NCBI RefSeq assembly: GCF_031181385.1
Contig: NZ_JAPSKV010000001.1
Span: forward strand, 310,001-374,000
Direction: 5' to 3'
Length of the DNA: 64,000 bases
Source of the DNA: Fredinandcohnia onubensis
GTDB lineage: Bacteria; Bacillota; Bacilli; Bacillales; Bacillaceae_L
Within the stretch, counting starts at the first letter, position 1. Every line of letters starts with the position of its first letter. The translations under genes and the position numbers were made by a program. Positions 10,490-56,099 of this stretch are shown here, piece by piece. The notes under the pieces are model-generated. The model was given only the letters and a program-made list of their open reading frames with translations. It was not told where the DNA came from and did not search any database.

Positions 10490-10507
10490 ATCTATTAAAA
10501 AGATTTT

Positions 10508-10550
10508 CCCCCACTGACTTAAATTTGGTTCAGTGGGAGGGTTTTTTCTT
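10508..10550 (+). terminator. Rho-independent terminator after galE
   Basis: An 8-base-pair GC-rich stem (CCCACTGA with TCAGTGGG, arms at 10510-10517 and 10530-10537) is followed by a run of T. It sits about 20 bases after the galE stop and ends the legionaminic acid operon. Confidence 0.9.
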
Positions 10551-10569
10551 TTAAACAGAATGTATATTC

Positions 10570-10950
10570 TTATTTCTTAAGCCATTTTTCAAACTCAGTA
10601 ACATCAAGCTCTCCAGTTCTTGCTTGTTCCAATTTATCCTTCGCTTCTAAATACCATTTGTTAAAACCTTCCTTGGACATTTTGCCGTTTCGAACCCTAG
10701 CGTAATGTGTTTTATATGCACGATTATATATTTTTAGGGGATAATCTTCTTCTAACTTTTTTTGAAAAGCTCGTTTTGGGCCAATTTCAGAACAAGGCTT
10801 TTCCTCGCCCTCAATTACCCTATCACAGTATTCCACATTTAAATTGTGAACCACAAAATACAATCCACATTGCCTACACTTTTTCACGGCAGTATTGCTC
10901 AAAATCATATGATAGACTTCAAGGAAAAGGACCTCAAATAAATCATTCAC
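10570..10950 (-). pseudogene. C-terminal part of DUF6076-like gene, split by a stop codon
   Basis: The 126-codon frame encodes a zinc-ribbon-like segment (CRQCGLYFVVHN then EYCDR) followed by a basic helical tail (YKTHYARVRNGKMSKEGF). It is in the same frame as the larger piece at 10954-11838: the sequence runs GIYEE, stop, KVNDLFEVLFLE, so a single TAA separates the two. The apparent GTG start at 10950 has no clear ribosome site. The two pieces together resemble proteins annotated DUF6076, which is an identification from memory. Function is unknown. A sequencing error or stop readthrough are alternatives to real inactivation. Confidence 0.6.
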
Positions 10951-10953
10951 TTT

Positions 10954-11838
10954 TTATTCCTCATAAATTCCTTCTGTGTACCCCTTCTCAGCATAGTCGA
11001 TAAGACTATCTAATTTCCGTAATGCCTCAGGATGAACATTTTTCTGGTTTTCATGAAAATCCTTTAAATCCCCGTAAAGCGTAAAGTGATGATCAATGCC
11101 ATCAAAATATTCCAACCATCGATAATTTGAAGCAAATCCATTTCTATGTGGATCTTTAAACGATATTTGTTTTGTAACAACCATATGCGGAAGGTCTGCC
11201 ATTGGACTGTGAACATTTCCGTAAACCCATGTTCGTTGAGGAATAGTGAGTTTATTTAATCGAGGAGTTGAAGCATCTAATATCCAAAAAAATATGCTTT
11301 TTAACTCATTCTGCAGGCCAATAAGGTGTTGAAAACCTTCAGGTGGCAATAATGGTAGATATTCCTCTTGCTTAACAATATTAAAGTATTTTTCATAAAA
11401 TTTTTCAGCTAATCCCTCTTCATTGAAGGTAATATCCGGAAATAAGGAATTAAAGCATTCGACATACCATTCTTTATCATATGTGGGTGAAAATGAATAG
11501 TATTCTTCATTATAGCTGGAATGGATTAACAAACCATTGAAGTAATCTCCAACCGCATAGTCAAAAACTTCACTGGATGTAAACTCAAAATAAGGATGAA
11601 CTTCATCTAATATAAAAATTACTTCACGTTGGTCGTCGTAAGTTGGTTTGTAATTTTTTGATTTGAAAGTTGTTGTGTCGATAATTTTTGAAAAATAACG
11701 TTCTAATTGATCAGGTAATTTAGATAAATCTGCTGCTAAAAATTTGAAAAGTCCCTCGTGTTCATTCGTTTCTTCATAGAAAATAGACCCATCCACGTCA
11801 GTATATTGATAGCCTTCGCTTGTAAATTTCAATAGCAA
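10954..11838 (-). pseudogene. N-terminal part of DUF6076-like gene, split by a stop codon
   Basis: The 294-residue product begins MLLKFTSEGYQYTDVDGSIF, is rich in aromatic and acidic residues and has no transmembrane segment or signal peptide. It ends at a TAA whose frame continues directly into the zinc-ribbon piece at 10570-10950, so the ancestral protein was about 420 residues. No catalytic motif was recognised. It is the most downstream member of a minus-strand group with the EVE-like gene at 12662-13318, but a 115-base gap at 11855-11969 suggests it may be a separate unit. Confidence 0.6.
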
Positions 11839-11969
11839 AACATAACACCTTCTTTATAGTTTTCTCAAAAAAAAATAGAAAGTTCATTTAGATAAGATAT
11901 ATATTACAAAATAAAGCAGGACAGACCTTTTATAGCTACCAAATGGAAACTAAAGATCTGTCCACTGAA

Positions 11970-15329: not shown

Positions 15330-15600
15330 GGAAGGGACGGAGGGACAGGGGGACAGACGGAATGTCACAGTGACGCCCCGCAGTTTGTCGAAAGCGGGTC
15401 TGTTCGTCCAACTCCAAAGGTTTCAAAGGATAAACTGAATATTAGGGTACTATTAATTTACTTTTAGCTGTACTAATCGCGAAATTTTATTTCAAACAAA
15501 CGTTTGATTGGTGGTTTAACTCTTTAGTAACTAGGTTTTTGAATTTCAAACGCTTGATTGGATGACTTTTTGTGTGAGTAAGAACTGCTGTTATAGTGGT
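15330..15600. repeat. Intergenic mosaic of three repeat families
   Basis: This gap holds a GGGACAGGGGGACAG unit (about 15338-15358), a GTGACGCCCCGCAGTTTGTCG unit shortened by one base from others in the window (from 15369) and a pair of CAAACAAACGTTTGATT / CAAACGCTTGATTG elements (15494-15560). All three recur in other gaps. No gene is present. Confidence 0.7.
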
Positions 15601-15616
15601 GGAATCGGCTGAATAA

Positions 15617-16762
15617 CTATTCTAGAATAACTGGGACAGAAGGGGCAGTATAGTGTGCCGACCTAGATTTACCGCTGTCTTCCTTGGCTTTCTTCAGGCG
15701 TTCCTCGAACAGTCTTTTTTTCTCTTCGAAGCTAGTGATTTGCATGGGGACCTGTGGAAAAGAGGTTGCCTCTTCTCTAAGCTTTTTCAATTGTTCCTCA
15801 ATCGCCTTTTTTTCTTCTTCAAAGTTAGGGTTATGTTCAGGTTCATAGCCTTGATTGTGATTATGAAGCCAATCTGGAATGTATTCCTGTCTAGTTGGCT
15901 TTTTCCTAGATTGATGATTCGTTTGATGTTTATAGGCAAGACGTGCAGCATTAACATCATCCAGAGTTTGATAGCCTTTATCTACCCAGTCTCTTAGGAC
16001 AGCTTCTACATAGTTCCAACGCTTTGATGAATTTTCTACGGCTAGTTTCATTGCTTCGATCAAAAGCTCGTCTGATAGGTCAGTGCACCACGCCTTGATT
16101 TTATCAGCTAGGAAGCTTCCGATTGTTCCAAATCCATTTTGCTCGAAGAATCGGTACGGGTCTTCTTTTTCTTTGTTTTGTTGTAAGTCTGTTGAAGAAG
16201 AAGAAGTCTTTGATGTAATCTCTGTAGTAATCTTTGTAGTAATCTCTGGTATTGGTGTGTTCAGATTGAACTCCTCTACGTGCCAAGTTGAGCCGCTCGA
16301 CTGCTCAATTTGAACACATGGGCTGTCCAGGTTGAGCACACCGTCTGCTCCATCTGAACATACCACTTGTTCAGGTTGGTCTGAAGGGATAAGTTCTTCC
16401 TCCATGAAAGTAAAGTCCTCGCAAATACCCTCATCCTTTAGTTCGTTCAAATTCTCATAATTTATCGTGTACCATTTCGTTTTGTCTAGTTTTAGTTTAT
16501 TGAAGTTTTGTGAGGTTAGATAGCCTTTGTTTTCAAGTTTAACAATTGTTCTTCGAATTGTGCTTTTAGAGATGAAAGGAATTTGTTCAACTAATTGATC
16601 ATAGGTGAGATACACCCATTTTTGATCTAGTTTAATATGTTTGCTACGTTGGAGCCAGTAGTGAATCTGTTGAAGAATAATACTTTCATTTGTACCGAGC
16701 AATACGGCAAGAGTTGGTACAACAATTATTGGTCTATCATTCAGTAGTATATTTCCAGTCAT
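15617..16762 (-). CDS. DnaD-domain replication/primosome-type protein
   Basis: The protein (381 residues from the chosen start) has an N-terminal winged-helix region with LGTNESIILQQIHYWL and IPFISKSTIRRTIVKLENKG, as in phage and plasmid replication initiators. A DnaD domain follows at about 205-270 (FFEQNGFGTIGSFLADKIKAW ending NYVEAVLRDWVDKG). The ATG at 16762 is chosen because AAAAAGG lies about 12 bases upstream; the ATG at 16774 touches that site. DnaD proteins help load the helicase at origins. No other phage or plasmid genes flank it, so this may be a relic of an integrated element or a solitary chromosomal copy. Confidence 0.8.
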   Translation of the reverse strand: MTGNILLNDRPIIVVPTLAVLLGTNESIILQQIHYWLQRSKHIKLDQKWVYLTYDQLVEQIPFISKSTIRRTIVKLENKGYLTSQNFNKLKLDKTKWYTINYENLNELKDEGICEDFTFMEEELIPSDQPEQVVCSDGADGVLNLDSPCVQIEQSSGSTWHVEEFNLNTPIPEITTKITTEITSKTSSSSTDLQQNKEKEDPYRFFEQNGFGTIGSFLADKIKAWCTDLSDELLIEAMKLAVENSSKRWNYVEAVLRDWVDKGYQTLDDVNAARLAYKHQTNHQSRKKPTRQEYIPDWLHNHNQGYEPEHNPNFEEEKKAIEEQLKKLREEATSFPQVPMQITSFEEKKRLFEERLKKAKEDSGKSRSAHYTAPSVPVILE

Positions 16763-43418: not shown

Positions 43419-45467
43419 ATGGGAAAAAAGTTAAGGTTTAGTACTGCTATTATAGCCTCTGCCATGTTGATGTTAGCTGCATGTCAGTCACAGCCTGAAG
43501 TAAAAGAGCCTGAAGAAAAGGAGCCTCCGAAAAAAATAGAAGAAAAAGTTGAGGAAAAAGAAGTGAATGGGGACTTTCCTTCATTTGGTTACGACTTAGG
43601 ACTAACTCGACATGTTCCATTTGATGAAATTACGAAAGAAAACGTGAAGGAACTAGGTCTTATTTGGAGTAAAAAATTTAAAGAAATCAATCCAGATATT
43701 CCGAATGGTAACCAAAATTACCCGGTTGTCGTTGATGGGGTTGCTTACGTGACAACAAGCATGAACTTTGTGTATGCCTTTGATGCATTAACTGGTGATG
43801 TCATTTGGGAATGGGTTCCTCCTAAAGAAATCATCGAAAATGCGGAACGCACAGGTATGCCGAACTCTAACCGTGGTGTTGCTGTAGCAGAAGGTAAAGT
43901 TTTTATGATTACAAATAATGTTGGGGTAGTATCCATTGATCAAAAAACAGGCGAAACCATTAATTATGTGAAAATTAGTGAATTCTACCCTGATGTCACA
44001 CCTGAAAATGGGTATTATGAAACAACAGCACCAACTTACTTTGACGGGAAAATTTTTGTGGGTTCATCAGGTGGTGATAACGGTGTTCGTGGTTTTGAAA
44101 TGGCATTTAATGCGAGTGATTTAACACCAGCATGGGATGAACCATTCTGGACTGTGCCGCCTAAAGGTGAAGATTGGTTAGCAGACGGGTTATTTGGTGG
44201 TGGTGGTGCTGTTTGGATGGCACCAAGTGTTGACGAAGAAACAGGAACACTTTATTTCTCTGCGGGAAATCCAGCACCTGACTTTTATGGTGAAAAACGA
44301 CCTGGCGCAAACCCGCATACAAACTCCGTACTGGCCGTCGACGTGGATACAGGAAAATTAAAATGGGCGCAGCAACAAATATCTCATGATCTTTGGGACT
44401 ATGATACAGCCGATAGCCCAACTGTTTATACTGCAACCATAAATGGTGAAAAACGCCGTGTTGTTGCTGTTGGTACAAAAGGTGGAGAATGGTTCGTCTA
44501 TGATGCCAAATCAGGAGATCCAATTTACAAAAATGTCCCATTTGCTAAAATTGACCACCCCGAACCTACACCAGAGGGTACATTGGTTTACCCAGGAATT
44601 TTAGGTGGCCAAAACTATGCACCGAATACGTATGATCCGGTATTAAATTTAGATTTAATTCCTTCTATTGAACAAGGTGCCATTCTTAAAGTTGCTAAAA
44701 ATGAAGAAGAAGCATCCGAAGTTGGAAAAGGCGGAGCTCAAGCCATGGGTACATCTTACGCACCTCCTGCCGATGAAGACGCATATGGTACGATTACTGC
44801 TTTTGACTTGAACACAGGGAAACAAGTATGGCAAATCGAAACGCCGGATGCGCAGCGTGGAGGTTTAACAAGTACAGCTACTGGCCTTACTTTCTATGGA
44901 GAATTAGATGGTAAAGTAAATGCCTTAGATACGGCAACAGGTGAGATTCTGTGGACATATCAAACAACAGGCCAAACGATTTCCGCTGCACCAACTATTT
45001 TCGTCGTAGATGGTAAACAATACATCATGATTACGTCAGCGGGTAGCGATCCTCAAGTGTTTGTATTTGCTTTAGGAGGAGAGCCATCACAAGCTGAAGC
45101 AGGGGAAACTGAAGAAACTGGTGACCCACATGCTGCTCATGAATCAGAGGAAAAAGAAGAACCTAAAACATTAGAACCTGCTACGACTGAAGCAAATGGT
45201 AATGTCATCGAAATCAATCTAACTGCAAAAAACTTCGAATTTGATCCTCAAGAAGTTCAAGCAAAAGTAGGAGATACCATTCGCTTCACAATGAGCAATG
45301 ATTCTGGACTACACGGTATCGCTCTTGATGAATTTGGCATGAACCTAAAAGAAGGCGAAACCTTTGAATTTGTAGTCACCAAAGCCGGAGAATTCCAATA
45401 CTACTGTAGCATCCCATGTGGCCCAGGCCACGACAACATGACCGGAACCCTGATCGTAACTGAATAG
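43419..45467 (+). CDS. Lipoprotein quinoprotein (PQQ-type propeller) fused to CuA cupredoxin
   Basis: The 682-residue protein starts with a lipobox (MLMLAAC). Residues about 50-560 form an eight-bladed propeller of the PQQ alcohol dehydrogenase type. GNPAP (Asn284) and HDLWDYD (Asp327) correspond to the substrate/catalytic Asn and Asp of methanol dehydrogenase, while the calcium-ligand position reads SGGDNGVRG, an Asp where Glu is usual. Residues about 590-682 are a cupredoxin with a full CuA signature: Cys663, Cys667, His671, Met674 and an upstream His in LHGIALDEFG. It could oxidise a substrate outside the membrane and pass electrons through copper. Cofactor occupancy is unproven. Confidence 0.8.
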   Translation: MGKKLRFSTAIIASAMLMLAACQSQPEVKEPEEKEPPKKIEEKVEEKEVNGDFPSFGYDLGLTRHVPFDEITKENVKELGLIWSKKFKEINPDIPNGNQNYPVVVDGVAYVTTSMNFVYAFDALTGDVIWEWVPPKEIIENAERTGMPNSNRGVAVAEGKVFMITNNVGVVSIDQKTGETINYVKISEFYPDVTPENGYYETTAPTYFDGKIFVGSSGGDNGVRGFEMAFNASDLTPAWDEPFWTVPPKGEDWLADGLFGGGGAVWMAPSVDEETGTLYFSAGNPAPDFYGEKRPGANPHTNSVLAVDVDTGKLKWAQQQISHDLWDYDTADSPTVYTATINGEKRRVVAVGTKGGEWFVYDAKSGDPIYKNVPFAKIDHPEPTPEGTLVYPGILGGQNYAPNTYDPVLNLDLIPSIEQGAILKVAKNEEEASEVGKGGAQAMGTSYAPPADEDAYGTITAFDLNTGKQVWQIETPDAQRGGLTSTATGLTFYGELDGKVNALDTATGEILWTYQTTGQTISAAPTIFVVDGKQYIMITSAGSDPQVFVFALGGEPSQAEAGETEETGDPHAAHESEEKEEPKTLEPATTEANGNVIEINLTAKNFEFDPQEVQAKVGDTIRFTMSNDSGLHGIALDEFGMNLKEGETFEFVVTKAGEFQYYCSIPCGPGHDNMTGTLIVTE

Positions 45468-45475
45468 GGAGGCTT

Positions 45476-45563
45476 GTCGTCCTAAGACAAGGGGATAGGA
45501 TTGTGTCCCAGCTTAGGGCTAGGTAGGGAAAGAAAAAATTAGGTGGGACACTGACGTGTCCCA
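45476..45563. repeat. GGGACAG-type repeat with stem after the quinoprotein gene
   Basis: It contains TCGTCCTAAGACAAGGGGAT and ends in AGGTGGGACACTGACGTGTCCCACCT (20-base core GGTGGGACAC...GTGTCCCACC), which folds into a strong stem with a tiny loop between two converging genes. It probably terminates both. Confidence 0.7.
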
Positions 45564-45564
45564 C

Positions 45565-47418
45565 CTATTTATGCAAGAATATACGCTCTGTTGGCAGTTT
45601 GATTTCAACAAGTGTAGTTTCTTTTTTACTATCAAATGTTATTTGACCTTGGAATTCGCTTGTCACGATTCCTTGGATGATGGATAAGCCTAATGAACTT
45701 GACTTGGACATGTCAAAACTCTCTGGAAAACCACGGCCATTGTCTTCCACGGATAAATAGATTGTATTTTCAAGCCTCTTGCATTTTATCACAATCATTC
45801 CGATATCATCGTCAGCAAAAGCATGTTTAAAGCAGTTAATGACTAATTCGTTAATGATTAGTGCAATAGATGTAGCTTTATTATAAGGAATGAAAATATC
45901 ATCAAGGTCTAGTTCAATTGTTACTTTCGGATTGTTATTGATAATGCTAATGATTGACTCGATAATTAGTTTCACGTTAATGATACTTCTGCCTAGTTTA
46001 TCCTTTGAAAGGAGGTTATGAACAGAAGCAATACTTTTGATCCGTAAAATAATGCTATCTAATATTTCATCAACGGATTGCTCTGGGTTATTTTGCACAA
46101 ACATTTTCTGCAATGAAATAAGCCCAACGATGGATTGAAGATTGTTTTTAATTCGATGGTGGCTTTCTTGGAGGAGAGCCGATCTTCCCATTAATCTTGT
46201 ATCTTCAATTGCAATTGCTGCATGTCGAGCTAACGCTGATAAAAATTTCGTCTCCTCTTTTGAATGAACATACAGATTCTCATAAGAAACCTGAATAATC
46301 CCTGTTACTTGTGAACGAATTAGTACGGGGATACAGATAATCGTTTTCACATTCTCAATTTTTTCAAACAAAGAGGGAAAAACGGTATCATTTTTATTGG
46401 CGTAATAGACATCATTTCCCTTCGCGATTCTTAAAATGGCCTCATTCGTTAATTGAGCGCTTACTGTTTGTTTGTTTTTATATTCAAAATCATCAATAAT
46501 ACTCCACGTGAACTCATCGATTAATTTAATCGAACTACTGTCAGCGTTCATCACTCTTGTAACTTCTTTCGCTAAAAGTAACAAAACATCTTTCAACTCA
46601 TATTCAGACGTCAAAAATTCTGCTGCCTTAAAGACAGCGTCAAGAACTGTTTGCGTTTCTTCGTCTTTATACTCATCATTATCGTTAAAATTGTAATTCT
46701 CAATTTTCTTTAGTAATTTTTGAGGGTCAGCTTTTGCTTCATCAGCTGCCATTTCAGCAGTAAGATTCCCATTGGAAATGATTGTGATTCGATCCGCAAG
46801 TTTTAAAGCATCCTCCCATTGTTTGGTTATATAGAGAATGCTTCCGCCAGTATCTTTAAATTGTTTCATGATGTTATATAACTTTGAAGCATTTATATCA
46901 GAAAGTCCTTCCATTGGTTCTTGAAGTATGATGATTTCAGGGCTTTGCATAAAGCCTCTTGCAATATAAACGATTCTTCTTTCTTCATCAGTGAGGTTTT
47001 TTACCTTCCTTTTATAATCAAATTGAAAATCAAGCTGAGTTAAAACTTTTTCTGCATTTTTATTCACTTTTTTCCAATCCACAAAAGGTGAAAATCTACG
47101 TGTTGGTATGGATAGCAAATTGAGATTTTCAGCGATAGAAAAGTTTTTTATTAACAAAGGTTTTTGTTGTAAAATTTCAATTCTATTTTTTACATGCTTA
47201 TGGCTCTTTAACATTTTGTCTTTGAATCTAACTTCACCACTCAAACCATGGTTTTCAAATAAATTTTTTAATGCCTGTATGAATACCTTTTGTTCAGAAC
47301 TATTCTTTATAATAAAAGCATGTATTTCAGAATATTTCAGATTAAAGTTAAGATTATTGATATCTCCATCTGGACTTGAAAAAGTTATATTATTACACTC
47401 CAATATAAACTCACTCAA
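45565..47418 (-). CDS. Histidine kinase with degenerate ABC-ATPase and GAF domains
   Basis: The 617-residue soluble protein has three parts. Residues 1-225 follow an ABC ATPase of the sugar-importer type, but the Walker A loop is lost (IIKNSSEQKVF), the signature motif reads LTDEERRIVYIARG and Walker B ends LQEP. Residues about 255-405 form a GAF domain. Residues 410-617 form a HisKA_2-type kinase with phosphorylatable His420/His421 in ESHHRIKNNLQS, an N box INELVINCFKHA and the G box VEDNGRGFP. It is divergent from an ANTAR response regulator and sits next to a sugar ABC importer. The dead ABC part may sense or dock to that importer; this is inference. Confidence 0.82.
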   Translation of the reverse strand: MSEFILECNNITFSSPDGDINNLNFNLKYSEIHAFIIKNSSEQKVFIQALKNLFENHGLSGEVRFKDKMLKSHKHVKNRIEILQQKPLLIKNFSIAENLNLLSIPTRRFSPFVDWKKVNKNAEKVLTQLDFQFDYKRKVKNLTDEERRIVYIARGFMQSPEIIILQEPMEGLSDINASKLYNIMKQFKDTGGSILYITKQWEDALKLADRITIISNGNLTAEMAADEAKADPQKLLKKIENYNFNDNDEYKDEETQTVLDAVFKAAEFLTSEYELKDVLLLLAKEVTRVMNADSSSIKLIDEFTWSIIDDFEYKNKQTVSAQLTNEAILRIAKGNDVYYANKNDTVFPSLFEKIENVKTIICIPVLIRSQVTGIIQVSYENLYVHSKEETKFLSALARHAAIAIEDTRLMGRSALLQESHHRIKNNLQSIVGLISLQKMFVQNNPEQSVDEILDSIILRIKSIASVHNLLSKDKLGRSIINVKLIIESIISIINNNPKVTIELDLDDIFIPYNKATSIALIINELVINCFKHAFADDDIGMIVIKCKRLENTIYLSVEDNGRGFPESFDMSKSSSLGLSIIQGIVTSEFQGQITFDSKKETTLVEIKLPTERIFLHK

Positions 47419-47694
47419 GCGAATACCCCCGTTCGAAAGAAAACTTGTGATTTTTATATAAACGAAATAATTCTATTTCAAAATAATTCAATTGCCTTTC
47501 TATGATGATAAATCATTTTCAAGATAACGACAAATCAAACTATCTACTTCAACTAGTAATCTTATGAATTTTTATAATAGCAGACAAATTTCGACTGTTT
47601 TCGCTTTCATTTTCAGATAAACTTATATATAATTTGGGTAGAAGAAATGGACCTCTTCTTTGAAGATGTAACAATAAATAGGGTGGTGATAACC

Positions 47695-48288
47695 ATGTCT
47701 CAGTCCTTACGAATTTTAATTGCCGAGGATGAATTTCTAGTATTAATGGCTACAAAATCCTATGTAGAAAGGCTAGGTCATGAAGTGGTTGGCGTTGCTA
47801 CAGATGGTGAAAATGCAGTTGAACTTGCATTGGAAAAAAAGCCTGATCTCGTCATTATGGACATTAACATGCCTAACCTGGATGGAATTGACGCCATTAG
47901 GAAGATTAATGAAACCCTTTTTATTCCGAGTATAATTGTAAGCGGTTATCATGATGAACAATTAATTAATAGAGCAACTGAAGAAGGTGTACTCTATTAT
48001 TTACTAAAACCTATTGATATAGAAGAACTAAAAATTGCGATCAATATTAGCCAGGCCAAATTTGAGGAGTTTAAGAAATTACAGGATGAGTTACAAAGTA
48101 CGAAGAATGCATTAGAAGCACGAAAGCATATTGAAAAAGCAAAAGGGATTATCATGGATCGGATGAATTTGAAGGAACCAGAAGCGATGAAGCGATTACA
48201 GAAAATGAGTCGTGATAAAAATAAGAAGTTAGTTGTAATCGCGAAAGAGCTCATTGAAGCAGATTCTTTATTTCGTTCAAATGGGTAA
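47695..48288 (+). CDS. Response regulator with ANTAR RNA-binding domain
   Basis: The 197-residue protein has a receiver domain with Asp56 in VIMDINMP, acidic residues in IAEDEF and Lys in YLLKPID. A linker coiled coil and a C-terminal ANTAR domain (HIEKAKGIIMDRMNLKEPEAM and MSRDKNKKL) follow. ANTAR proteins bind paired hexaloop hairpins in nascent RNA and prevent termination, as EutV does. The ATG at 47695 is preferred because GGTGGTGAT precedes it. The divergent gene encodes a HisKA_2 kinase, the usual partner type. The probable RNA target is the leader at 48445-48571. Confidence 0.9.
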   Translation: MSQSLRILIAEDEFLVLMATKSYVERLGHEVVGVATDGENAVELALEKKPDLVIMDINMPNLDGIDAIRKINETLFIPSIIVSGYHDEQLINRATEEGVLYYLLKPIDIEELKIAINISQAKFEEFKKLQDELQSTKNALEARKHIEKAKGIIMDRMNLKEPEAMKRLQKMSRDKNKKLVVIAKELIEADSLFRSNG

Positions 48289-48444
48289 AATTGTTAGTTT
48301 AAAATAGTACTTGACTATTAGAAAACGTCACAATATACTATAAATATAGTTACAAAGACATTACAAATGTATAAATTAGTTGATAACTATACTCATGTGT
48401 GGTATAGCGAATTACAACCGTTTTCAATGAACTTAATATAATGT

Positions 48445-48571
48445 AAATTTTATACTTATGGCTGGTGTAAAATTTATGATGGCTATGGGTGCCTTATATA
48501 CGTAATCTTTTATTCTCTCTTTTTGTAGAGTGTAAAAAGTATTACGTGTTTAAGGCACCCTTTTGTTTTTT
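48445..48571 (+). promoter_or_regulatory. Candidate ANTAR-controlled leader with terminator
   Basis: A first hairpin (arms 48445-48457 and 48464-48475) presents ATGGCT (48458-48463) in its loop. A second ATGGCT lies at 48479-48484, just before a strong terminator (GGGTGCCTTA...TAAGGCACCC, outer arms from 48487 and to 48560, then TTTTGTTTTTT). A and G at loop positions 1 and 4 match the ANTAR target rule. The pairing around the second copy is not clear by eye. The leader lies between the ANTAR gene and the sugar ABC operon. The remaining gap to 48786 has no gene. Confidence 0.65.
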
Positions 48572-48786
48572 GTTAGTAATGAAAGCGATTTTATCGGATG
48601 ACCATTGAAAGGGGTGATGTGGCAAGAAATAGTAGTTACAACAACTGGTTGTGATGGGGATGAAATATGAAGGTAATCGTTTATCTGATCTGACATCAGT
48701 GAACATGTAACCGCTTTATATTCATTCTGTTTACAATATTCTATTAACAAATTTTATTTCTAATAAAAAACAGGGGGTATACACCA

Positions 48787-49743
48787 ATGAAAAGTTTGAA
48801 AAAGTTAGTTGTACTTGCACTAGCATTACTTTTATTCGTTGCAGCAGGTTGTTCTAACCAAAGCAATGCAAGTGGTGGCGAAGGTGACGGAGAAGCGAAG
48901 AAAGAAAAGATTAAAATCGGTATGTCTTTCCAAGAGATGAACAATCCTTACTTCATTTCAATGAAAGAAGCATTTGAAGAGGCAGCTGCGCAAATTGGTG
49001 CTGAAACTGTTATTGCAGACGCTCAACATGACGTATCAAAACAAATTAACGATATTTCTGACATGCTTCAGAAAGATATTGATATTCTATTAATCAACCC
49101 TACTGACAGTGAAGGTGTTGAAGGTGCAGTAGAAGCTGCGAAAGAAGCAGGCGTGATCGTTGTAGCTATTGATGCTCAAGCTAAAGGTCCTATCGATTCT
49201 TTCGTAGGTTCAAGAAACTATGATGCTGGTTATTTAGCTGGTAAACAAATGGTTGAAGATTTAGGTGGACAAGGTAAAGTTGCAATCCTTGACGGTATTC
49301 CAGTTGTACCGATCCTAGAGCGTGTACGTGGTTTTGAAGATGCTGTTAAAGAGGCTCCAGGAATCGAAATTGTTGACAAACAAAATGGTAAACAAGATAG
49401 AGCTGAAGCAATGAAGGTTACAGAAAACATGTTACAAGCAAATCCAGATTTAAAAGCAATTTTTAGTGTTAACGATGAAGGTGCACTAGGTACTCTAGGT
49501 GCAATTGAAGCATCTGGTAAAGATGTATCAATCTACAGTGTTGACGGACACCCAGAAGCGATCGAAGCAATCACAAAAGGCGGACCGTTTAAAGCAACTA
49601 CTGCTCAATTCCCAAGAGACCAAGTAAGAATCGGACTTGGTATGGCATTGGCTAAGCTTTGGGGTGCAGAGGTAGTTCCTACTGAAGTTCCAATCGATGT
49701 AGAACTACAAACGAAAGAAAACGCTGCAGACTTTAGCTGGTAA
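48787..49743 (+). CDS. Sugar-binding lipoprotein of a ribose-type ABC importer
   Basis: The 318-residue protein has a lipobox (LFVAAGC, Cys22) and a type I periplasmic-binding fold of the RbsB/YtfQ group: KIGMSFQEMNNPYFISMKEA, DILLINPTDSEGVEGAVEAA and FSVNDEGALGTLGAIEASG. It captures a sugar or polyol outside the membrane and passes it to the permease encoded downstream. AGGGGGT precedes the ATG. It is the first gene of the transport and catabolic operon behind the putative ANTAR leader. Ligand unknown; a pentose or pentitol is suggested by the downstream enzymes. Confidence 0.9.
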   Translation: MKSLKKLVVLALALLLFVAAGCSNQSNASGGEGDGEAKKEKIKIGMSFQEMNNPYFISMKEAFEEAAAQIGAETVIADAQHDVSKQINDISDMLQKDIDILLINPTDSEGVEGAVEAAKEAGVIVVAIDAQAKGPIDSFVGSRNYDAGYLAGKQMVEDLGGQGKVAILDGIPVVPILERVRGFEDAVKEAPGIEIVDKQNGKQDRAEAMKVTENMLQANPDLKAIFSVNDEGALGTLGAIEASGKDVSIYSVDGHPEAIEAITKGGPFKATTAQFPRDQVRIGLGMALAKLWGAEVVPTEVPIDVELQTKENAADFSW

Positions 49744-49782: not shown

Positions 49783-49817
49783 TCTCCTAAATATGTGTAA
49801 GAAGGAAGGTGATTGCT

Positions 49818-51317
49818 GTGGATAACATACTAGAGATTGAGAATATTACCAAGGAATTTCCTGGGGTAAAAGCGTTAAAAGGAGTTAGTTTTAATATTAG
49901 ACGCGGTGAGGTTCATGCATTAGTTGGAGAAAATGGCGCTGGAAAATCGACACTGATGAAAATCCTTTCTGGTGTGTATACTCCTACTGCAGGAAAAATT
50001 CGTTTAGATGGAAATGAAGTAACATTCAAAGATCCTAAGCAAGCACAGCAATTAGGGGTTAGTATTATTCACCAGGAGTTCAGTTTAATTCCTTATTTAA
50101 GCGGTGTAGATAATATTTTCTTAGGTCGTGAGAAAAAGCAAGCGAATGGATTATTAAACAGAAAAAAGATGCGTAAGGAAGCAGAAGAAGTATTACAAAG
50201 ATTAAATGCAGATATTGACTTAAACAAGCCTGTCGCACATTTAAGTGTGGCCAACCAACAATTTATAGAAATTGCAAAAGCAATTGCAATCGATACGAAA
50301 GTATTAATTTTTGACGAACCAACAGCTAGTTTAACTGGTAAAGAAATCGACAAGTTATTTGAATTAATTAATAAATTGAAAGCTGATGGTGTAACCATTA
50401 TATATATATCGCACCACTTAGAGGAAATTCTAGCAATGTGCGACCGCTTCACCTGTTTACGTGATGGTGAGTTTGTTGGAACAAGAGATGTAAAGGATTC
50501 TACCAAACAAGATATTGTAAAAATGATGGTAGGCCGTGAAATAGTCAATGCGTTTCCTGAAAAACCAGCAAAGACTGGGAATGAAGAAGTATTATTAGAA
50601 GTTAAGAAAATGGCTAATAAACAAATTCATGATATTCAATTTAAGCTGAAAAAGGGAGAAATCATTGGAATTGCTGGCCTAGTAGGTTCCGGACGAACAG
50701 AGGTTGTAAGGGCATTAATAGGGGCTGATGATTCACAAGTAAAAGATGTTCACATCAGTGGGCAAAAGGTATCTATTAAGAACCCAACTGATGCACTTGC
50801 ACATGGCATCGCACTAATTCCGGAGAGTCGAAAAACACAAGGTCTCGTACTCAGTCAATCCATAAAAAATAATATTAGTATTCCAATTTTGAAAGATTTG
50901 TCAAACTTCTTAAGAATTATTAATAAGAAAAAAGAAAACGAAATTGTTGAGAAATCCATTCAAGACCTCTTAATCAAAACACCAAGCAGCACACAGTTGG
51001 TAAAAAATCTGAGTGGGGGAAATCAACAAAAGGTTGTTCTAGCCAAATGGTTAAATACAGATTGTAAAATATTAATCTTTGATGAACCTACCCGTGGAAT
51101 TGATATCGGGGCTAAGGAAGAAATTTATAAACTAATGAGAAGATTAGCAGATGAAGGACTTTCTATCATCATGATTTCCTCAGAATTACCTGAAATTTTA
51201 GGGATGAGTGACCGAGTGCTTGTTATGCACAAAGGAAGAATAAAGGGAGAACTTCCAGGAAATGAAGCAACTTCAGAAAAAGTAATGTATTTTGCAACGG
51301 GTGGTGCGGATGAATGA
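49818..51317 (+). CDS. Sugar ABC importer ATPase (RbsA/AraG/XylG type)
   Basis: The protein is a tandem ABC ATPase. The first half has Walker A GENGAGKSTLMK, signature LSVANQQFIEIAKAI and Walker B LIFDEPTAS. The second half has the usual degenerate Walker A (GLVGSGRTEV), signature LSGGNQQKVVLAKWL and LIFDEPTRGID. This double layout is that of monosaccharide importers. The GTG at 49818 is chosen because AAGGTG lies about 8 bases upstream; the upstream GTG at 49809 is within that site. It overlaps the permease start by four bases. Confidence 0.92.
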   Translation: MDNILEIENITKEFPGVKALKGVSFNIRRGEVHALVGENGAGKSTLMKILSGVYTPTAGKIRLDGNEVTFKDPKQAQQLGVSIIHQEFSLIPYLSGVDNIFLGREKKQANGLLNRKKMRKEAEEVLQRLNADIDLNKPVAHLSVANQQFIEIAKAIAIDTKVLIFDEPTASLTGKEIDKLFELINKLKADGVTIIYISHHLEEILAMCDRFTCLRDGEFVGTRDVKDSTKQDIVKMMVGREIVNAFPEKPAKTGNEEVLLEVKKMANKQIHDIQFKLKKGEIIGIAGLVGSGRTEVVRALIGADDSQVKDVHISGQKVSIKNPTDALAHGIALIPESRKTQGLVLSQSIKNNISIPILKDLSNFLRIINKKKENEIVEKSIQDLLIKTPSSTQLVKNLSGGNQQKVVLAKWLNTDCKILIFDEPTRGIDIGAKEEIYKLMRRLADEGLSIIMISSELPEILGMSDRVLVMHKGRIKGELPGNEATSEKVMYFATGGADE

Positions 51318-52285
51318 GTGAACTAGATTATAAGAGAAGAGGATCTAGCGTTAAGGACTTGTTAAAGTATCCAGAAATGTTAACGCTGATTGGATTTTTA
51401 GTATTATGTATATTCTTTTCCATTACAGCAGAAAGCTTTTTAACGGCAGATAATATCTCAAATATTATCAGACAAGTTTCGATAAACGGGATATTAGCAG
51501 TTGGGATGACTTTTGTTATCTTAACAGGTGGTATTGATTTATCAGTTGGTTCAGTAATGGCACTTACGGGAACTATTATAGCGGGTATGATGATTAATAC
51601 TGGATTACCTCCAGTTGTAGCCGTATTAATTGGTATCGTTTTAGGTGCAGTTCTTGGATATATCAACGGTTTATTTACAGCTTATGCAAAAATACCGGCG
51701 ATTATTGTTACATTAGCCATGATGGAGGCTGCACGTGGTTTAGCGCTTCTATATACAGGTGGTTATCCACTTTCAGGACTACCAAGTTCATATAATTTTA
51801 TCGGTAGAGGATATTTATTTGGGGTTATTCCAATGCCTGCCGTTATTATGATTCTGGTCTTTATCGCAGCTTATATCATTTTAAACCATTTACCAATCGG
51901 CCGTTATATTTACGCGCTTGGCGGTAATGAGGAAGCAGTTAGATTATCTGGTGTCAAGGTAAAACGTATCAAAACTTTTGTATATATAGTTAGTGGTGTT
52001 ACAGCTGCTATTAGTGGAATGATCATGACTTCAAGACTTTCTTCAGGGCAACCAATGGCAGGGGAAGGTTATGAGTTAGATGCCATCGCTGCAGTTGTAT
52101 TAGGTGGAACAAGCATCGCGGGTGGCCGTGGACATATTTTTGGAACATTACTAGGTGCTCTATTATTAGGTGTTTTAAGTAATGGATTAAACCTAATGGG
52201 TGTATCTCCATATGTACAACGTGTACTTAAAGGTGTGATTATCGTTGGTGCTATCTACTATAGTAGTACTCGTCAAAAAGACTAA
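51314..52285 (+). CDS. Sugar ABC importer permease (RbsC type)
   Basis: This 323-residue membrane protein has eight to ten helices and the RbsC/AraH landmarks: NGILAVGMTFVILTGGIDLS near the start, YINGLFTAYAKIPAIIVTLA, and the coupling EAA-like segment GGNEEAVRLSGVKVKRIK. It forms the channel with the ATPase encoded by the overlapping upstream gene (ATGA overlap). Together with the lipoprotein it completes one importer. Substrate is inferred from the catabolic genes that follow. Confidence 0.92.
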   Translation: MSELDYKRRGSSVKDLLKYPEMLTLIGFLVLCIFFSITAESFLTADNISNIIRQVSINGILAVGMTFVILTGGIDLSVGSVMALTGTIIAGMMINTGLPPVVAVLIGIVLGAVLGYINGLFTAYAKIPAIIVTLAMMEAARGLALLYTGGYPLSGLPSSYNFIGRGYLFGVIPMPAVIMILVFIAAYIILNHLPIGRYIYALGGNEEAVRLSGVKVKRIKTFVYIVSGVTAAISGMIMTSRLSSGQPMAGEGYELDAIAAVVLGGTSIAGGRGHIFGTLLGALLLGVLSNGLNLMGVSPYVQRVLKGVIIVGAIYYSSTRQKD

Positions 52286-52370: not shown

Positions 52371-53447
52371 ATGTCAGTATTACCAGAAACAATGAAAGCT
52401 GTAGTAGCACATGGTCCAGAGGATTACCGAGTTGAGGAAGTTGCAGTTCCAAAGGCTGGACCAGGGGAAGTTATCATCAAAGTCGAAGCTTGTGGTATTT
52501 GTGGTAGTGATTTAAAGGCATATCATGGTTCTGCAATGTATTGGGGTGGAGAAGACCCTTGGATGAAAGCACCAGTTATTCCAGGACATGAATTCTATGG
52601 AATTGTGGCTGAATTAGGAGTAGGTGCTGCAGAAAAACACGGATTGGCGGTTGGTGATCGCGTAACAACTGACCAAATTAATCCATGTGGAAAATGTAAG
52701 TTCTGTAAAACAGGTAAGTACTGGATGTGTGATGTTCACAACATTTATGGTTTCCAAAAAGACATTGCCGAAGGAGCTTGGGCTGAATATATGAAATTCA
52801 GCGACACAGCAACTATTTATAAAATTACGGATGGAGTTACTCCTGAAGAGGCTGCATTAGTTGAGCCAATGGCTTGTGCCGTTCATACCATCCAAAGAGC
52901 AACAATCGAGTTTGAAGATGTAGTTGTACTAGCAGGTGCTGGGACACTTGGTTTATGTATGCTTCAACTCATTAAATTAAAAACACCTAAGAAATTAATC
53001 GTACTCGATGGTAATGAAAACCGCCTAGCTGTTGCGAAAAAATTAGGTGCTGACCTTGTCATCAACCCATTAAAAGAGGACGCAATCAAAATCGTTAAAG
53101 ATTTAACAGACGGTTACGGTTGTGATGTATATATTGAAGCAACTGGTCATCCAAGCGGTGTTACACAAGGCCTAGAAATGGTTAGAAGACTTGGAAGATT
53201 TATCGAATTTAGCGTATTTGGTTCAGAAGTAACGACTGACTGGAGCGTTATCGGGGACAGAAAAGAATTGGATATTAGAGGATCTCACTTAGGACCTTAC
53301 ACATATCCAATTGCAATCGACCTATTTGAACGTGGCTTATTAACAGCTGAAGGAATTGTTACACATAGCTACAAAGTAGAAGACTTTGTAGAAGCTATGG
53401 ATATGGCACATAATCCAGAAGCGATTAAAGTATTATTAAAACCTTAA
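52371..53447 (+). CDS. Zinc-dependent polyol dehydrogenase (MDR family)
   Basis: The 358-residue medium-chain dehydrogenase has catalytic zinc ligands in CGICGSDLKAYHG and GHEFYGIV, structural zinc cysteines in NPCGKCKFCKTGKYWMC and the Rossmann motif GAGTLGLCMLQ. Asp in VLDGNEN indicates NAD preference. It is close to erythritol/threitol and sorbitol-type dehydrogenases and should oxidise a polyol to a ketose. In this operon, upstream of araD and an AraB-like kinase, a plausible substrate is a pentitol whose ketose enters those steps. GGGAG precedes the ATG. Confidence 0.85.
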   Translation: MSVLPETMKAVVAHGPEDYRVEEVAVPKAGPGEVIIKVEACGICGSDLKAYHGSAMYWGGEDPWMKAPVIPGHEFYGIVAELGVGAAEKHGLAVGDRVTTDQINPCGKCKFCKTGKYWMCDVHNIYGFQKDIAEGAWAEYMKFSDTATIYKITDGVTPEEAALVEPMACAVHTIQRATIEFEDVVVLAGAGTLGLCMLQLIKLKTPKKLIVLDGNENRLAVAKKLGADLVINPLKEDAIKIVKDLTDGYGCDVYIEATGHPSGVTQGLEMVRRLGRFIEFSVFGSEVTTDWSVIGDRKELDIRGSHLGPYTYPIAIDLFERGLLTAEGIVTHSYKVEDFVEAMDMAHNPEAIKVLLKP

Positions 53448-53612
53448 TTAGGGTGTAAAGAAGATCAGATTAATGAAGAGATTTTTGATGTGAGCAAGGG
53501 GCGGTGACTTCAGCGGAATAAAACGTGTCAGAGTAGGCTATACAAAGCTAAACAACACGCAAGATTCGCAAAAAGGAGTCCGCCCTTTTTTTAAGGGGAA
53601 ATCAGAAATAAT

Positions 53613-53640
53613 AAGGCTCGGCTTTTGCCGAGTTTTCTTT
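53613..53640 (+). terminator. Intrinsic terminator between the dehydrogenase and araD
   Basis: GCTCGGC and GCCGAGT around TTTT, followed by TTTCTTT, form a compact stem and T run just before araD. It may attenuate expression of the two downstream enzyme genes relative to the transporter. The preceding 53450-53600 stretch has no gene. Confidence 0.82.
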
Positions 53641-53659
53641 ATAGAACGGAGTGAAAATT

Positions 53660-54364
53660 ATGTTAGAAGAATTAAAACAGAAAGTATTAGAAGCGAATCT
53701 AGAGCTACCAAAAAGGAACTTAGTCATATTCACTTGGGGGAATGTAAGTGGCATTGACCGCGAAAAGGGCCTTGTTGTTATTAAACCAAGTGGAGTTGCA
53801 TATGAGGATTTGAAAGCTGAAGATTTACCGGTACTCGACTTAGAAGGAAACATCATTGAAGGTAAACTAAATCCTTCGTCAGACACAGCAACACACTTAG
53901 TCTTATATAAGGCATTTCCAGAAATAGGAGGGGTGGTACATACCCACTCACCATGGTGTACAAAATGGGCGCAATCAGGAAGAGCGATTCCTGCATATGG
54001 AACAACACATGCTGATTATTTTTATGGAGACATTCCTTGTACTCGGCACATGACTCCGTTTGAAATTGACAATGATTATGAGCACAATACTGGTGAAGTA
54101 ATTGTAGAGACATTTAAAAATATCGACCCATCTTCTATTCCAGGTGTCATTGTGAATAACCACGGTCCTTTTAACTGGGGCAAAGATCCAATGAAAGCTG
54201 TAGAAAATGCGGTTGTCATGGAAGAAGTTGCGAAATTTGCTTACTATACTCAAAGTCTATCACCTGAGATTGATGCAATTGACCAACATTTACTAGATAA
54301 ACACTTTTTACGTAAGCATGGGAAAGATGCATATTACGGTCAACAAAAGAAGGTAAATAGCTAA
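53660..54364 (+). CDS. araD: L-ribulose-5-phosphate 4-epimerase
   Basis: This 234-residue class II aldolase-fold protein has [18 protein letters not shown], the metal-site motif [14 protein letters not shown], a third histidine in NNHGPFNWG and the family-specific tail [18 protein letters not shown]. It interconverts L-ribulose 5-phosphate and D-xylulose 5-phosphate. The ATG at 53660 has GGAGTG upstream; a GTG three codons earlier lies in that site. A second, broken araD tail occurs at 58190-58335, about 3.8 kb downstream. Confidence 0.92.
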
Positions 54365-54442
54365 ATGGGACAGAGGGACAGGTCACTTGTCCCAGGAAAA
54401 ATACGGTGGGACAGGGGACCTGTCCCCTTGTCCCGCGCCAAT
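54365..54442. repeat. GGGACAGGTCC / GGGACCTGTCCC inverted repeat block
   Basis: The block reads GGGACAGAGGGACAGGTCAC, TTGTCCC, a short spacer, then GGTGGGACAGGGGACCTGTC and CCCTTGTCCCGCG. It is an inverted pair of the window-wide repeat family in the gap between araD and the kinase. An artificial N-terminal extension of the kinase frame runs through it. Confidence 0.8.
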
Positions 54443-54461
54443 TACTAGAGGGGGTCGTAAC

Positions 54462-56099
54462 GTGAAGGCGAATATAGAAGATATTAAGAAGGCAATTATA
54501 AATGGAGAAACTTCACTTGGGATTGAGTTGGGATCGACACGAATCAAAGCAGTTCTAATTGATAGACAATTTGAAACAATTGCATCCGGAGGTTATGATT
54601 GGGAAAACCGTCTAGAAAACGGTTTTTGGACATACGACCTAGAGGATATAAAGACTGGTCTACAAGCAGCTTACCGTGAAATGAAAAGTGAAGTAGAACG
54701 TAAATTTGGAATAACGATTCAAACAATTGGATCTATTGGATTTTCTGCCATGATGCACGGATATATGGCGTTTGACAAGACGGGTGAGCTACTCGTTCCT
54801 TTTCGGACGTGGCGGAATACAAATGCTGGTCGAGCAGCAAAAGAATTAACAAATCTTTTTCAATATAATATCCCCGAAAGATGGAGTATCGCTCATCTAT
54901 ACCAAGCGATTTTAAATGAAGAGGAACATGTTCCGAAACTTGATTACATTACAACATTATCTGGTTACATTCATTGGTTACTAACTGGCAACAAAGCCAT
55001 TGGAATTGGTGATGCTTCTGGTATGTTCCCGATTAATGATGCAACAAAGAATTATAATGAAGCAATGGTCGAGCAATTTGATGAACTTGTTGCCGCGAAA
55101 AATTATCCTTGGAAGCTTAGAGACATTTTTCCACCAGTTTATATCTCTGGTGAATATGCAGGGAAATTAACGGATGTAGGGGCCGACATTTTAGATCCCT
55201 CACAAAAATTACAACCTGGTATTCCGATTTGTCCACCAGAAGGTGATGCTGGAACAGGAATGGTTGCGACAAATAGCGTAAGAAAACGTACAGGAAACGT
55301 CTCTGTCGGAACTTCTGTTTTTGCCATGATTGTATTAGAAAAAGAACTTTCAAAAGTATACCCGGAAATTGACATGGTTACGACGCCGAACGGAAGTCCT
55401 GTTGCAATGGTTCATGCGAATAACTGCTCAAGTGATATTAACGCCTGGATTGGATTGTTCCGTGAATTCTCGGAAGCGATGGGGTATAAAGTGGATACCA
55501 ATCAGTTATTCAGTGTCATGTTCAACAAAGCGTTGGAAGCGGACCCAGATGGTGGCGGATTGCTAAGCTATGGTTATTTTTCAGGTGAATTTATCACTGG
55601 ATTAGAACACGGCAGACCATTGTTTGTTCGTTCACCAGAGAGCAACTTCAATCTAGCAAACTTTATGCGCACACATCTATTTTCAGCATTTGGTGCATTA
55701 AAAATTGGAATGGATATTTTGACTAAGCAAGAAGATGTTGCAATAGATAGCATTCTAGCCCATGGTGGATTATTTAAAACACCGGTAGTGGGACAAAGAA
55801 TGATGGCAGCTGCAATGAATACACCGGTTTCTGTCATGGCAACAGCGGGAGAAGGCGGAGCGTGGGGAATGGCTATTCTTGCTTCATATATGATGAATGA
55901 AAACAAGAATGAAAGTTTAGGAGACTTCCTCGACAGAACAGTCTTCAACGATGTTGTTGGGGAGGAAATCGATCCTGATCCTGAAGACGTAAAAGGGTTT
56001 GAAGTATTTATTGAACGCTATAAAAAAGGCATAGAAATTGAGAAGGCTGCGGTTGACAATTTGCTTCTAACAAAAGAAGAGAAAACTGTAAAATTGTAG
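54462..56099 (+). CDS. FGGY-family carbohydrate kinase, ribulokinase-like
   Basis: The product (545 residues) has the FGGY kinase layout: phosphate-1 loop [27 protein letters not shown], the adenosine region [15 protein letters not shown] and the C-terminal [18 protein letters not shown]. Its size and the MHGYMAFD motif resemble the AraB-type ribulokinases of Firmicutes and Bacteroidetes more than xylulokinase. It should phosphorylate the ketose to the 5-phosphate used by AraD. The GTG at 54462 has AGAGGGGG upstream; a longer frame from 54387 is repeat-derived. An L-ribulose role is likely but not proven. Confidence 0.85.

Follow-up and report, generated by a model that had tools for sequence, protein, structure and literature searches.

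A sensor kinase with a degenerate sugar-importer cassette, its ANTAR regulator and a candidate leader RNA beside CUT2 importers

Genes at the locus

In the window analyzed here, a stretch of 64,000 nucleotides from Fredinandcohnia onubensis (contig NZ_JAPSKV010000001.1, positions 310,001 to 374,000), a sensor kinase and an ANTAR response regulator are encoded beside a sugar importer operon. The kinase gene (45565..47418, minus strand; 617 amino acids) was defined from its open reading frame, Pfam, curated matches, a motif table and hydropathy, and the regulator gene (47695..48288, plus strand), defined from its reading frame and Pfam, is divergent from it. An earlier note on this DNA, made from the sequence without database searches, had described these two genes, and both were found where it had placed them. 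The plus strand continues with genes for an RbsB-like substrate-binding lipoprotein (48787..49743), an RbsA-like ATPase with two cassettes, the first having intact motifs (49809..51317), an RbsC-like permease (51314..52285) and three catabolic enzymes, a zinc alcohol dehydrogenase, an AraD-like epimerase and an FGGY sugar kinase (52371..56099), all assigned from Pfam and curated matches and, for the ATPase, an alignment as well. The substrate of the importer and the catabolic genes is probably a pentitol or a pentose. A leader RNA within 48387-48571, not included in the earlier note, is the part of the locus to which control of the importer can be attributed.

The kinase and its cassette

The kinase is built from a degenerate CUT2-type ATP-binding cassette (ABC) domain at about residues 1-240, a GAF domain (275-405), a HisKA_2 domain (418-491, with SHHRIKNNL) and an HATPase_c domain (515-611). 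Pfam reports ABC_tran at 21-169 (E 2.5e-12), GAF at 275-404, HisKA_2 at 418-491 (1.1e-13) and HATPase_c at 515-611 (1.6e-11), and the closest curated matches of the cassette are the CUT2 sugar ATPases AlsA, MglA, XylG, GguA and RbsA. When aligned with the neighboring RbsA, the cassette has IKNSSEQK in place of GENGAGKS in the Walker A region, LTDEERR in place of LSVANQQ in the signature region, IIILQEP in place of VLIFDEP in the Walker B region and YITKQWED in place of YISHHLEE in the H-loop region. It is therefore without the Walker A lysine, the Walker B aspartate, a normal signature and the H-loop histidine, the features by which a functional ABC ATPase is recognized, and by its sequence appears not to be one; the Walker B glutamate and the Q-loop glutamine are retained. 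Pfam, the curated matches and the RbsA alignment agree with the claim that the N-terminal domain resembles a sugar-importer ATPase lacking the Walker A lysine and a proper signature, and the live ATPase of the same type that was said to lie in the adjacent operon is the RbsA-like protein, whose motifs are intact.

The remainder of the protein looks like a working kinase of the HisKA_2 type, with an acceptor histidine and the N and G boxes of HATPase_c. HisKA_2 and HATPase_c were matched in 32/32 kinases of the family, ABC_tran in 30 and GAF_3 in 28. Residues N528, D559, G561 and G563 of the N, D and G boxes are invariant in all 32, as are H420/H421, the latter partly by construction since HHRIK was a search pattern. 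The kinase looks soluble, because it has no strongly hydrophobic 19-residue stretch (Kyte-Doolittle maximum 1.59). On its other side the kinase gene adjoins a gene for a PQQ-type alcohol dehydrogenase propeller (43419-45467, plus strand) with a C-terminal cupredoxin-like stretch and a lipoprotein-like start.

Distribution and gene neighborhoods

The system is rare and patchy. In a draw of relatives it was present in one of 59 other genomes, at 92% (E 1e-40). A draw from the class gave no full-length match among 397 other genomes and a single match to the kinase part (E 1e-30, three candidates scored per genome), and a draw from the phylum gave the system in 7 of 397 others, with the kinase part alone matched in 4 more. 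Plasmids had no match to the system at 1e-25. We then drew on a scan of a collection of 84,980 species genomes with two short peptide patterns (around EYEL and HHRIK), which is not exhaustive and makes the conservation of these patterns partly a matter of construction. It yielded 74 loci, of which 37 have a cassette kinase, two have a cut or fragmented kinase (L052, L062) and 35 are without the cassette. The kinases of the window and of L023 and L024, both from the phylum draw, bring this set of 37 to the 40 cassette kinases discussed below, from which L052 and L062 were left out; two of the 40 (L053 and L063) share one contig. Their hosts belong to the Bacillales, the Halanaerobiales, gut Clostridia and a Fusobacteriales metagenome-assembled genome (MAG), and the closest named host is Fredinandcohnia onubensis (L031), which carries a near copy.

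One kinase (L037, from a Halanaerobiales MAG) contains a stop. At this locus (9992-11845, 15350-16353) there is an in-frame TAG in the kinase cassette and the RbsC gene is frameshifted, so either the two genes appear to be broken together or the assembly is faulty. We rejected a recoded codon as the explanation, because TAG also terminates genes there and the permease is frameshifted too.

An ANTAR regulator adjoins the kinase in 39 of the 40 loci; in the exception (L057), the contig ends inside the kinase. An RbsA/RbsC-type importer, whole or in part, lies near 37 of the 40: in 32 cases both an RbsA-like ATPase and an RbsC-like permease are present (the L037 permease in two frames), in one the ATPase is in two frames (L036), and four carry part of the set before the contig ends (L038, L039, L047, L054). 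Of the other three, two are at contig ends (L041, L057) and one (L063) has RbsC-type genes only about 7 kb upstream. In the cassette-less loci, RbsA or RbsC was matched in 0 of 35 within flanks of 10 kb or less, an imperfect control in that four of these loci have no kinase score above the threshold and only seven have an ANTAR regulator match. The gene order is not constant: kinase and regulator are divergent in many Bacillales, the order is kinase-regulator-importer in the Halanaerobiales, and in the gut group it is regulator-kinase. A kinase close to that of the window (65%, L027) adjoins a different importer, again of the CUT2 class. The earlier note had linked the kinase to a live importer with the same type of ATPase and had named homologues beside unrelated genes, with no ABC importer, as the finding that would count against its idea; across the 40 loci the link is borne out (37/40 versus 0/35), and this contrary pattern did not appear.

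Origin and decay of the cassette

We placed 39 kinase cassettes in a tree of 113 cassettes, with 34 N-terminal and 34 C-terminal halves of RbsA and six other ATPases; the kinase with the internal stop was left out of the tree, the motif table and the correlations given below, and the near copy (L031) out of the correlations. The kinase cassettes form one clade (98/95), nearer to the N-terminal than to the C-terminal RbsA halves, in a tree where several branches are long and the inner details unsure. Among the 39, the Walker A lysine is retained in 12, the full Walker A in 8, the Walker B aspartate in 6, the Walker B glutamate in 35, the Q-loop glutamine in 17 and the H-loop histidine in one, and none has an LSGGQ- or RbsA-like signature. 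Walker A and B are kept together in four members (L050, L057, L023, L024), which group together (98/79, just under the level the tool marks with a star) as sister to the other 35 (100/99). Because of this position, ATP binding was likely ancestral and lost in most members. These sequences are most simply explained if a CUT2 cassette became fused to a kinase once and its motifs decayed later. The description of the cassette as dead accordingly fits the lineage of the window and most members, but not the four of 39 in which Walker A and B are intact.

The same four, and the eight with a full Walker A, could suggest that the cassette senses nucleotides, that is, the energy state of the cell. We find this highly improbable: the Walker A lysine is missing in 27 of the 39, the window included, none has the signature, and energy sensing gives no reason for the tie to a single class of importer.

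Decay was uneven along the domain. In the decayed members, identity to RbsA relative to RbsA's own was 0.29 for Walker A and 0.65 for the helical part, the highest of 11 regions. Directly after the Q-loop, 10 of the 12 kinase rows shown have AEN (FSIAEN in the window), and its asparagine is at least 90% conserved over 32 kinases. In ABC importers, the part just after the Q-loop lines the permease groove. We read this pattern of residues as a permease-facing surface that may have been kept on a domain that lost its ATP site.

A different reading is that the GAF domain senses a sugar or metabolite in the cytoplasm, and that the cassette is a structural or dimerizing relic, kept since the fusion arose beside an importer. 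The GAF domain is indeed kept in nearly all members and the cassette motifs are far decayed in the gut group, yet a relic would be expected to be deleted, and the cassette has been kept by the 40 members in all four host groups. The Bacillaceae moreover have conserved replacements, such as [NSD]SSEQ, in the decayed motifs, and CUT2 importers are absent from all 35 cassette-less loci, of which only seven, however, had an ANTAR match. We consider this explanation unlikely.

The regulator

The open reading frame of the regulator begins at 47647, but a start at 47695 is more likely, because it is preceded by GGTGGTG, which resembles a ribosome-binding site. Pfam reports Response_reg at 23-132 and ANTAR at 152-203. 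The phospho-acceptor is Asp72 in the longer form and Asp56 from the probable start, in keeping with the Asp56 of the earlier note. The phospho-aspartate and the lysine of the receiver are retained in 39/39 regulators of the family, so that with its acidic pocket and ANTAR domain the protein has all the parts of an ANTAR response regulator. It is the sole ANTAR match in its genome.

In EutV, the residues that contact RNA are Tyr164, Arg168, Met172, Arg175 and Arg177, as numbered in excerpts of PMC8934654. We mapped these positions onto the family through PDB 6wsh, whose label reads only 'Response regulator' and which we took to be EutV because its residues fit the numbers in those excerpts with an offset of two. 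The replacements in the family are Met (Tyr164), Gln (Arg168), a residue other than Met (Met172), Asn (Arg175) and Lys (Arg177), every one of them present in 38 of the 39 members. Several of these changes also occur in seven ANTAR regulators from control loci, but all seven have Phe or Tyr at 164, and only the Met at 164, and mostly the Lys at 177, separate the family from them. Together with an altered RNA loop, described next, the altered contacts would fit a distinct class of RNA recognition.

The leader RNA

Between the regulator and the binding protein, positions 48420-48590 fold far better than shuffled sequences (z -8.0). A putative promoter for this leader (TTGACT-17-TATACT, 48311..48339, plus strand) was found by a pattern scan whose matches are no commoner than in shuffles (7 versus 7.2), and boxes like TTGAC...TATAAT align in most of 11 Bacillaceae leaders. 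These 11 leaders align over the promoter-like boxes, a hairpin P1, a short linker, a hairpin P2 and a terminator. In the window (all on the plus strand), P1 (48449..48471), defined from the comparative alignment and a covariance model, has eight inner pairs and a loop UAUGGCU closed by U.G, and its stem extends outward. P2 (48479..48495; ATGGC-TATGGGT-GCCTT) was defined from the comparative alignment and a terminator scan. An extra hairpin resembling P1, which we call P0 (CTATAC-TCATGTGTG-GTATAG, 48387..48407), matches the model weakly (15.8 bits) and has similar counterparts in several relatives.

The same element is present in Halanaerobiales, Orenia, the Fusobacteriales MAG and gut Clostridia. 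In the family, P1 has eight pairs and a loop for which N-A-Y-G-R-N-N, closed by U.G, is the usual form, and P2 has the same loop on a GG(C/U)...GCC stem; the loops are of 6-8 nucleotides, mostly 7, of the form N-A-[YW]-G-R, with an A and then a purine three positions on in a loop frame that differs. The element emerged from the comparative alignment, while a direct search of the leaders for textbook ANTAR hexaloops gave no consistent pair, and Rfam over 45400-48900 gave only matches far below the gathering scores. In an alignment of 25 sequences, 91.1% of the cells are paired, there are 60 double changes and the score is 0.614, where shuffles average 73.7%, 18.9 and 0.265, and slid versions of the structure pair 48% at most. 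For 13 sequences, without the Bacillales, the figures are 89.6% paired versus 68.0% shuffled. All 25 rows were consulted in drawing the structure, and the script that chose the rows of both alignments required at least four P1 pairs, which favors P1 pairing by construction.

In 35 of 36 elements, an intrinsic terminator starts 4 to 9 bases before the end of the element and takes in the 3' arm of P2, versus 3.5 in shuffled sequences. The test required at least six pairs and a T run, and its control consisted of simple base shuffles of the downstream bases. It covered 36 of 48 matches of the model R1 (see below); those left out were the two of the near copy L031, seven second-hairpin matches (L026, L027, L030, L032, L034, L052 and the window) and three others (L094, L032:12324, L049:9192). 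The terminator of the window (48487..48571) was found by folding and the terminator scan, a first simple scan with a loop limit of 8 not having picked it up; it extends from GGGTGCCTTA (48487) to TAAGGCACCC (48560), followed by a T-rich tract to 48571, and P2 ends in the GCC at 48491-48493. Because the 3' arm of P2 lies in the 5' arm of the terminator, the two cannot form together and are mutually exclusive. The leader thus has the two stem-loops, the second overlapping an intrinsic terminator, that mark an ANTAR target of the EutV/NasR/AmiR type, with P2 pairing that covaries weakly. According to excerpts of PMC3369931 and PMC8934654, the layout is the same for EutV, where binding of ANTAR to the stem-loops prevents the terminator.

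We searched with two covariance models, R1, whose training set includes the window, and R2, made from 13 of the 25 rows with the Bacillales rows and L039 left out, which makes a search with R2 the fairer test. R1 has one strong match in the window genome, at 57.5 bits, the next being at 16.8, and with R2 the element of the window is the best in the 4.26 Mb genome at 40.0 bits, the next being at 22.2. In the Halanaerobiales genome G638, too, there is a single ANTAR match and a single strong RNA element. The 12 Bacillales leaders that were searched with R2 all score 32.7-43.3 bits. In 14 of the 35 cassette-less loci, R2 had no match at E 1 and R1 had one match of 15.0 bits (L094) at E 5. R1 matches precede importer genes in 33 of the 37 loci, 25 of these being training rows, and 29 score 27.4 bits or more, for a noise level of about 27 bits. 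A 27.2-bit match in a genome of the same genus without the kinase falls within an open reading frame of 336 amino acids, and we took it as noise. Among 15 genomes, R1 matched under 1e-3 in five of the eight with the kinase, each time at the kinase locus and each a training row or near copy, and in none of the seven without it; of the other three kinase genomes, two have elements that score 26.5 (G708) and 16.0 bits (G734), and in the third (G522) the contig is 3.9 kb long.

The first operon genes behind the element vary and include an anhydro-MurNAc kinase (L055:12081-13313), a PfkB kinase (L048:12667-13578) and a flavin mononucleotide (FMN) dehydrogenase (L061:17018-18169), so the substrates of the importers probably differ widely among members. 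Further matches lie before divergent genes, one to R1 (L059:7448-7497, minus strand, before genes for SnoaL_4-like proteins) and one to R2 (L053:9135-9188, minus strand), and some members may control more than the importer. One element of 44.9 bits (L040:9882-9925, plus strand) stands before the kinase gene itself, which suggests autoregulation there; the simple scan found no terminator. Just past the leader terminator of the window, TGAAAGCGATTTTA (48581-48594, plus strand) resembles a CcpA cre site, and catabolite repression may act there as a second layer.

A transport-coupled circuit

We regard it as somewhat probable that the locus encodes a transport-coupled two-component system with an RNA output, in which the kinase acts through the ANTAR regulator and antitermination on the importer. 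The earlier note had the signal passed to an RNA-binding ANTAR protein; the leader element and its terminator lend this support from sequence, and suggest that the output is aimed at the importer operon, because the one clear element of the genome sits in the importer leader, beside the one ANTAR gene of the genome. HisKA_2/HATPase_c kinases phosphorylate a receiver aspartate, and ANTAR proteins, once phosphorylated, block a terminator by binding to paired stem-loops. A soluble kinase dimer would dock its two dead CUT2 cassettes on the RbsC permease, as RbsA would, and would read the state of the permease when the substrate-loaded binding protein engages it; the GAF and HisKA_2 domains would relay this state onward, and GAF may contribute a cytoplasmic signal. 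In the presence of the sugar, transcription would read through into the importer and catabolic genes, a positive feedback, and in its absence it would stop near 48571.

The dead cassette likely docks on the permease, which the earlier note had proposed, beside the live ATPase, as one of two candidate partners through which the cassette could report transport. We favor the permease as the partner because the linkage is to CUT2 importers even where the importer differs (L027), because a kinase dimer, like RbsA, would bring two cassettes, and because a dead cassette cannot drive transport, so that its use should be contact. The fuller proposal, that the permease is the transmembrane receptor of a soluble kinase and that dead cassettes replace RbsA on the RbsC dimer, forming a non-transporting complex through which the substrate-bound binding protein would signal directly to antitermination, we put forward only tentatively. 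The cassette could instead pair with RbsA, with which it shares its fold and source, and monitor the live ATPase through its nucleotide or transport cycle; given the regulator, the correlation of cassette distances with RbsA is no weaker than that with RbsC (0.55 and 0.48). The RbsA chain, however, already holds both cassettes of the transporter and would leave no free cassette face once assembled, and we think this pairing decidedly unlikely.

Several results weigh against docking on the permease or against the RNA output. The distance correlations were meant to single out the cassette as the transporter-facing part and do not achieve this: the distances of the cassette correlate with those of RbsC (r 0.42 given GAF) but also with those of the regulator (r 0.53), and given the regulator, the GAF and histidine kinase parts track RbsC little less than the cassette does (0.36 and 0.34 versus 0.48). 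The swapped importer of L027 can also be read as opposing tight co-adaptation. The H-loop stretch has a retention of 0.64, near that of the helical part, whose absolute identity to RbsA in decayed cassettes, 0.24, is ordinary compared with other regions. As for the RNA, the loops depart from those of ANTAR targets, which are hexanucleotides with A in the first and G in the fourth position. Pairs with a double change number 9 versus 7.6 in shuffles, a value reached in 107 of 500, and the two outer pairs of P2 fail in 9 and 12 of the 25 rows; the covariation is therefore that of P1, and the case for P2 comes from its near-constant GG/CC core and from the overlap with the terminator. Finally, four loci with importer genes (L038, L053, L058, L060) have no R1 match at E 5.

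Relation to known systems

The kinds of component proposed here, transport-coupled kinases and ANTAR antitermination, are known. The kinase EutW is also of the HisKA_2 type and, to our knowledge, has no ABC cassette. EutW-EutV and the eut leaders of Enterococcus faecalis likewise comprise a two-component kinase, a receiver-ANTAR protein and paired stem-loops, the second overlapping a terminator, in excerpts of PMC3369931 and PMC8934654. The eut RNAs have hexaloops with A1/G4, in contrast to the mostly 7-nucleotide loops here, and the EutV contacts differ from those of the family at the five positions given above.

BceS is a membrane kinase and is not known to have a cassette. According to excerpts of PMC6978683, BceS and PhoR are transport-coupled kinases, and in the BceRS-BceAB system of Bacillus the kinase likewise reads the activity of an ABC transporter and raises its expression, while in PstSCAB-PhoU-PhoR an importer conveys its state to a regulator. 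BceAB is an exporter for antibiotic resistance and the Bce output binds DNA, whereas here the transporter is an importer and the output would be RNA. In MalK-MalT, too, an importer conveys its state to a regulator. In MalK-MalT and PstSCAB-PhoU-PhoR live transporter subunits signal, and here a dead ATPase copy is fused to the kinase. The CUT2 ATPases RbsA, MglA and XylG are the nearest curated families, from which the kinase cassettes differ in forming a separate clade and in being single, mostly decayed and fused to a kinase. ANTAR RNAs near sugar transporters have been reported in actinobacteria, according to an excerpt of PMC8164766. Our searches of open-license papers turned up no description of a histidine kinase that uses an ABC cassette as its sensor, and such a sensor module would be a new class if docking were proved.

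If this reading is correct, one fusion of a CUT2 cassette to a kinase, followed by decay of the ATPase motifs, gave rise to a new class of sensor. It would define a compact circuit, found across soil, salt-loving and gut bacteria, in which the motor domain of a transporter was turned into a sensor, and would add a variant class of ANTAR-RNA pairs, represented in the window genome by a single regulator and a single clear target. The ways in which soluble kinases detect sugars outside the cell and in which transporters signal would both become testable in this system, where the importer itself may serve the cell as the sensor that switches on sugar uptake.

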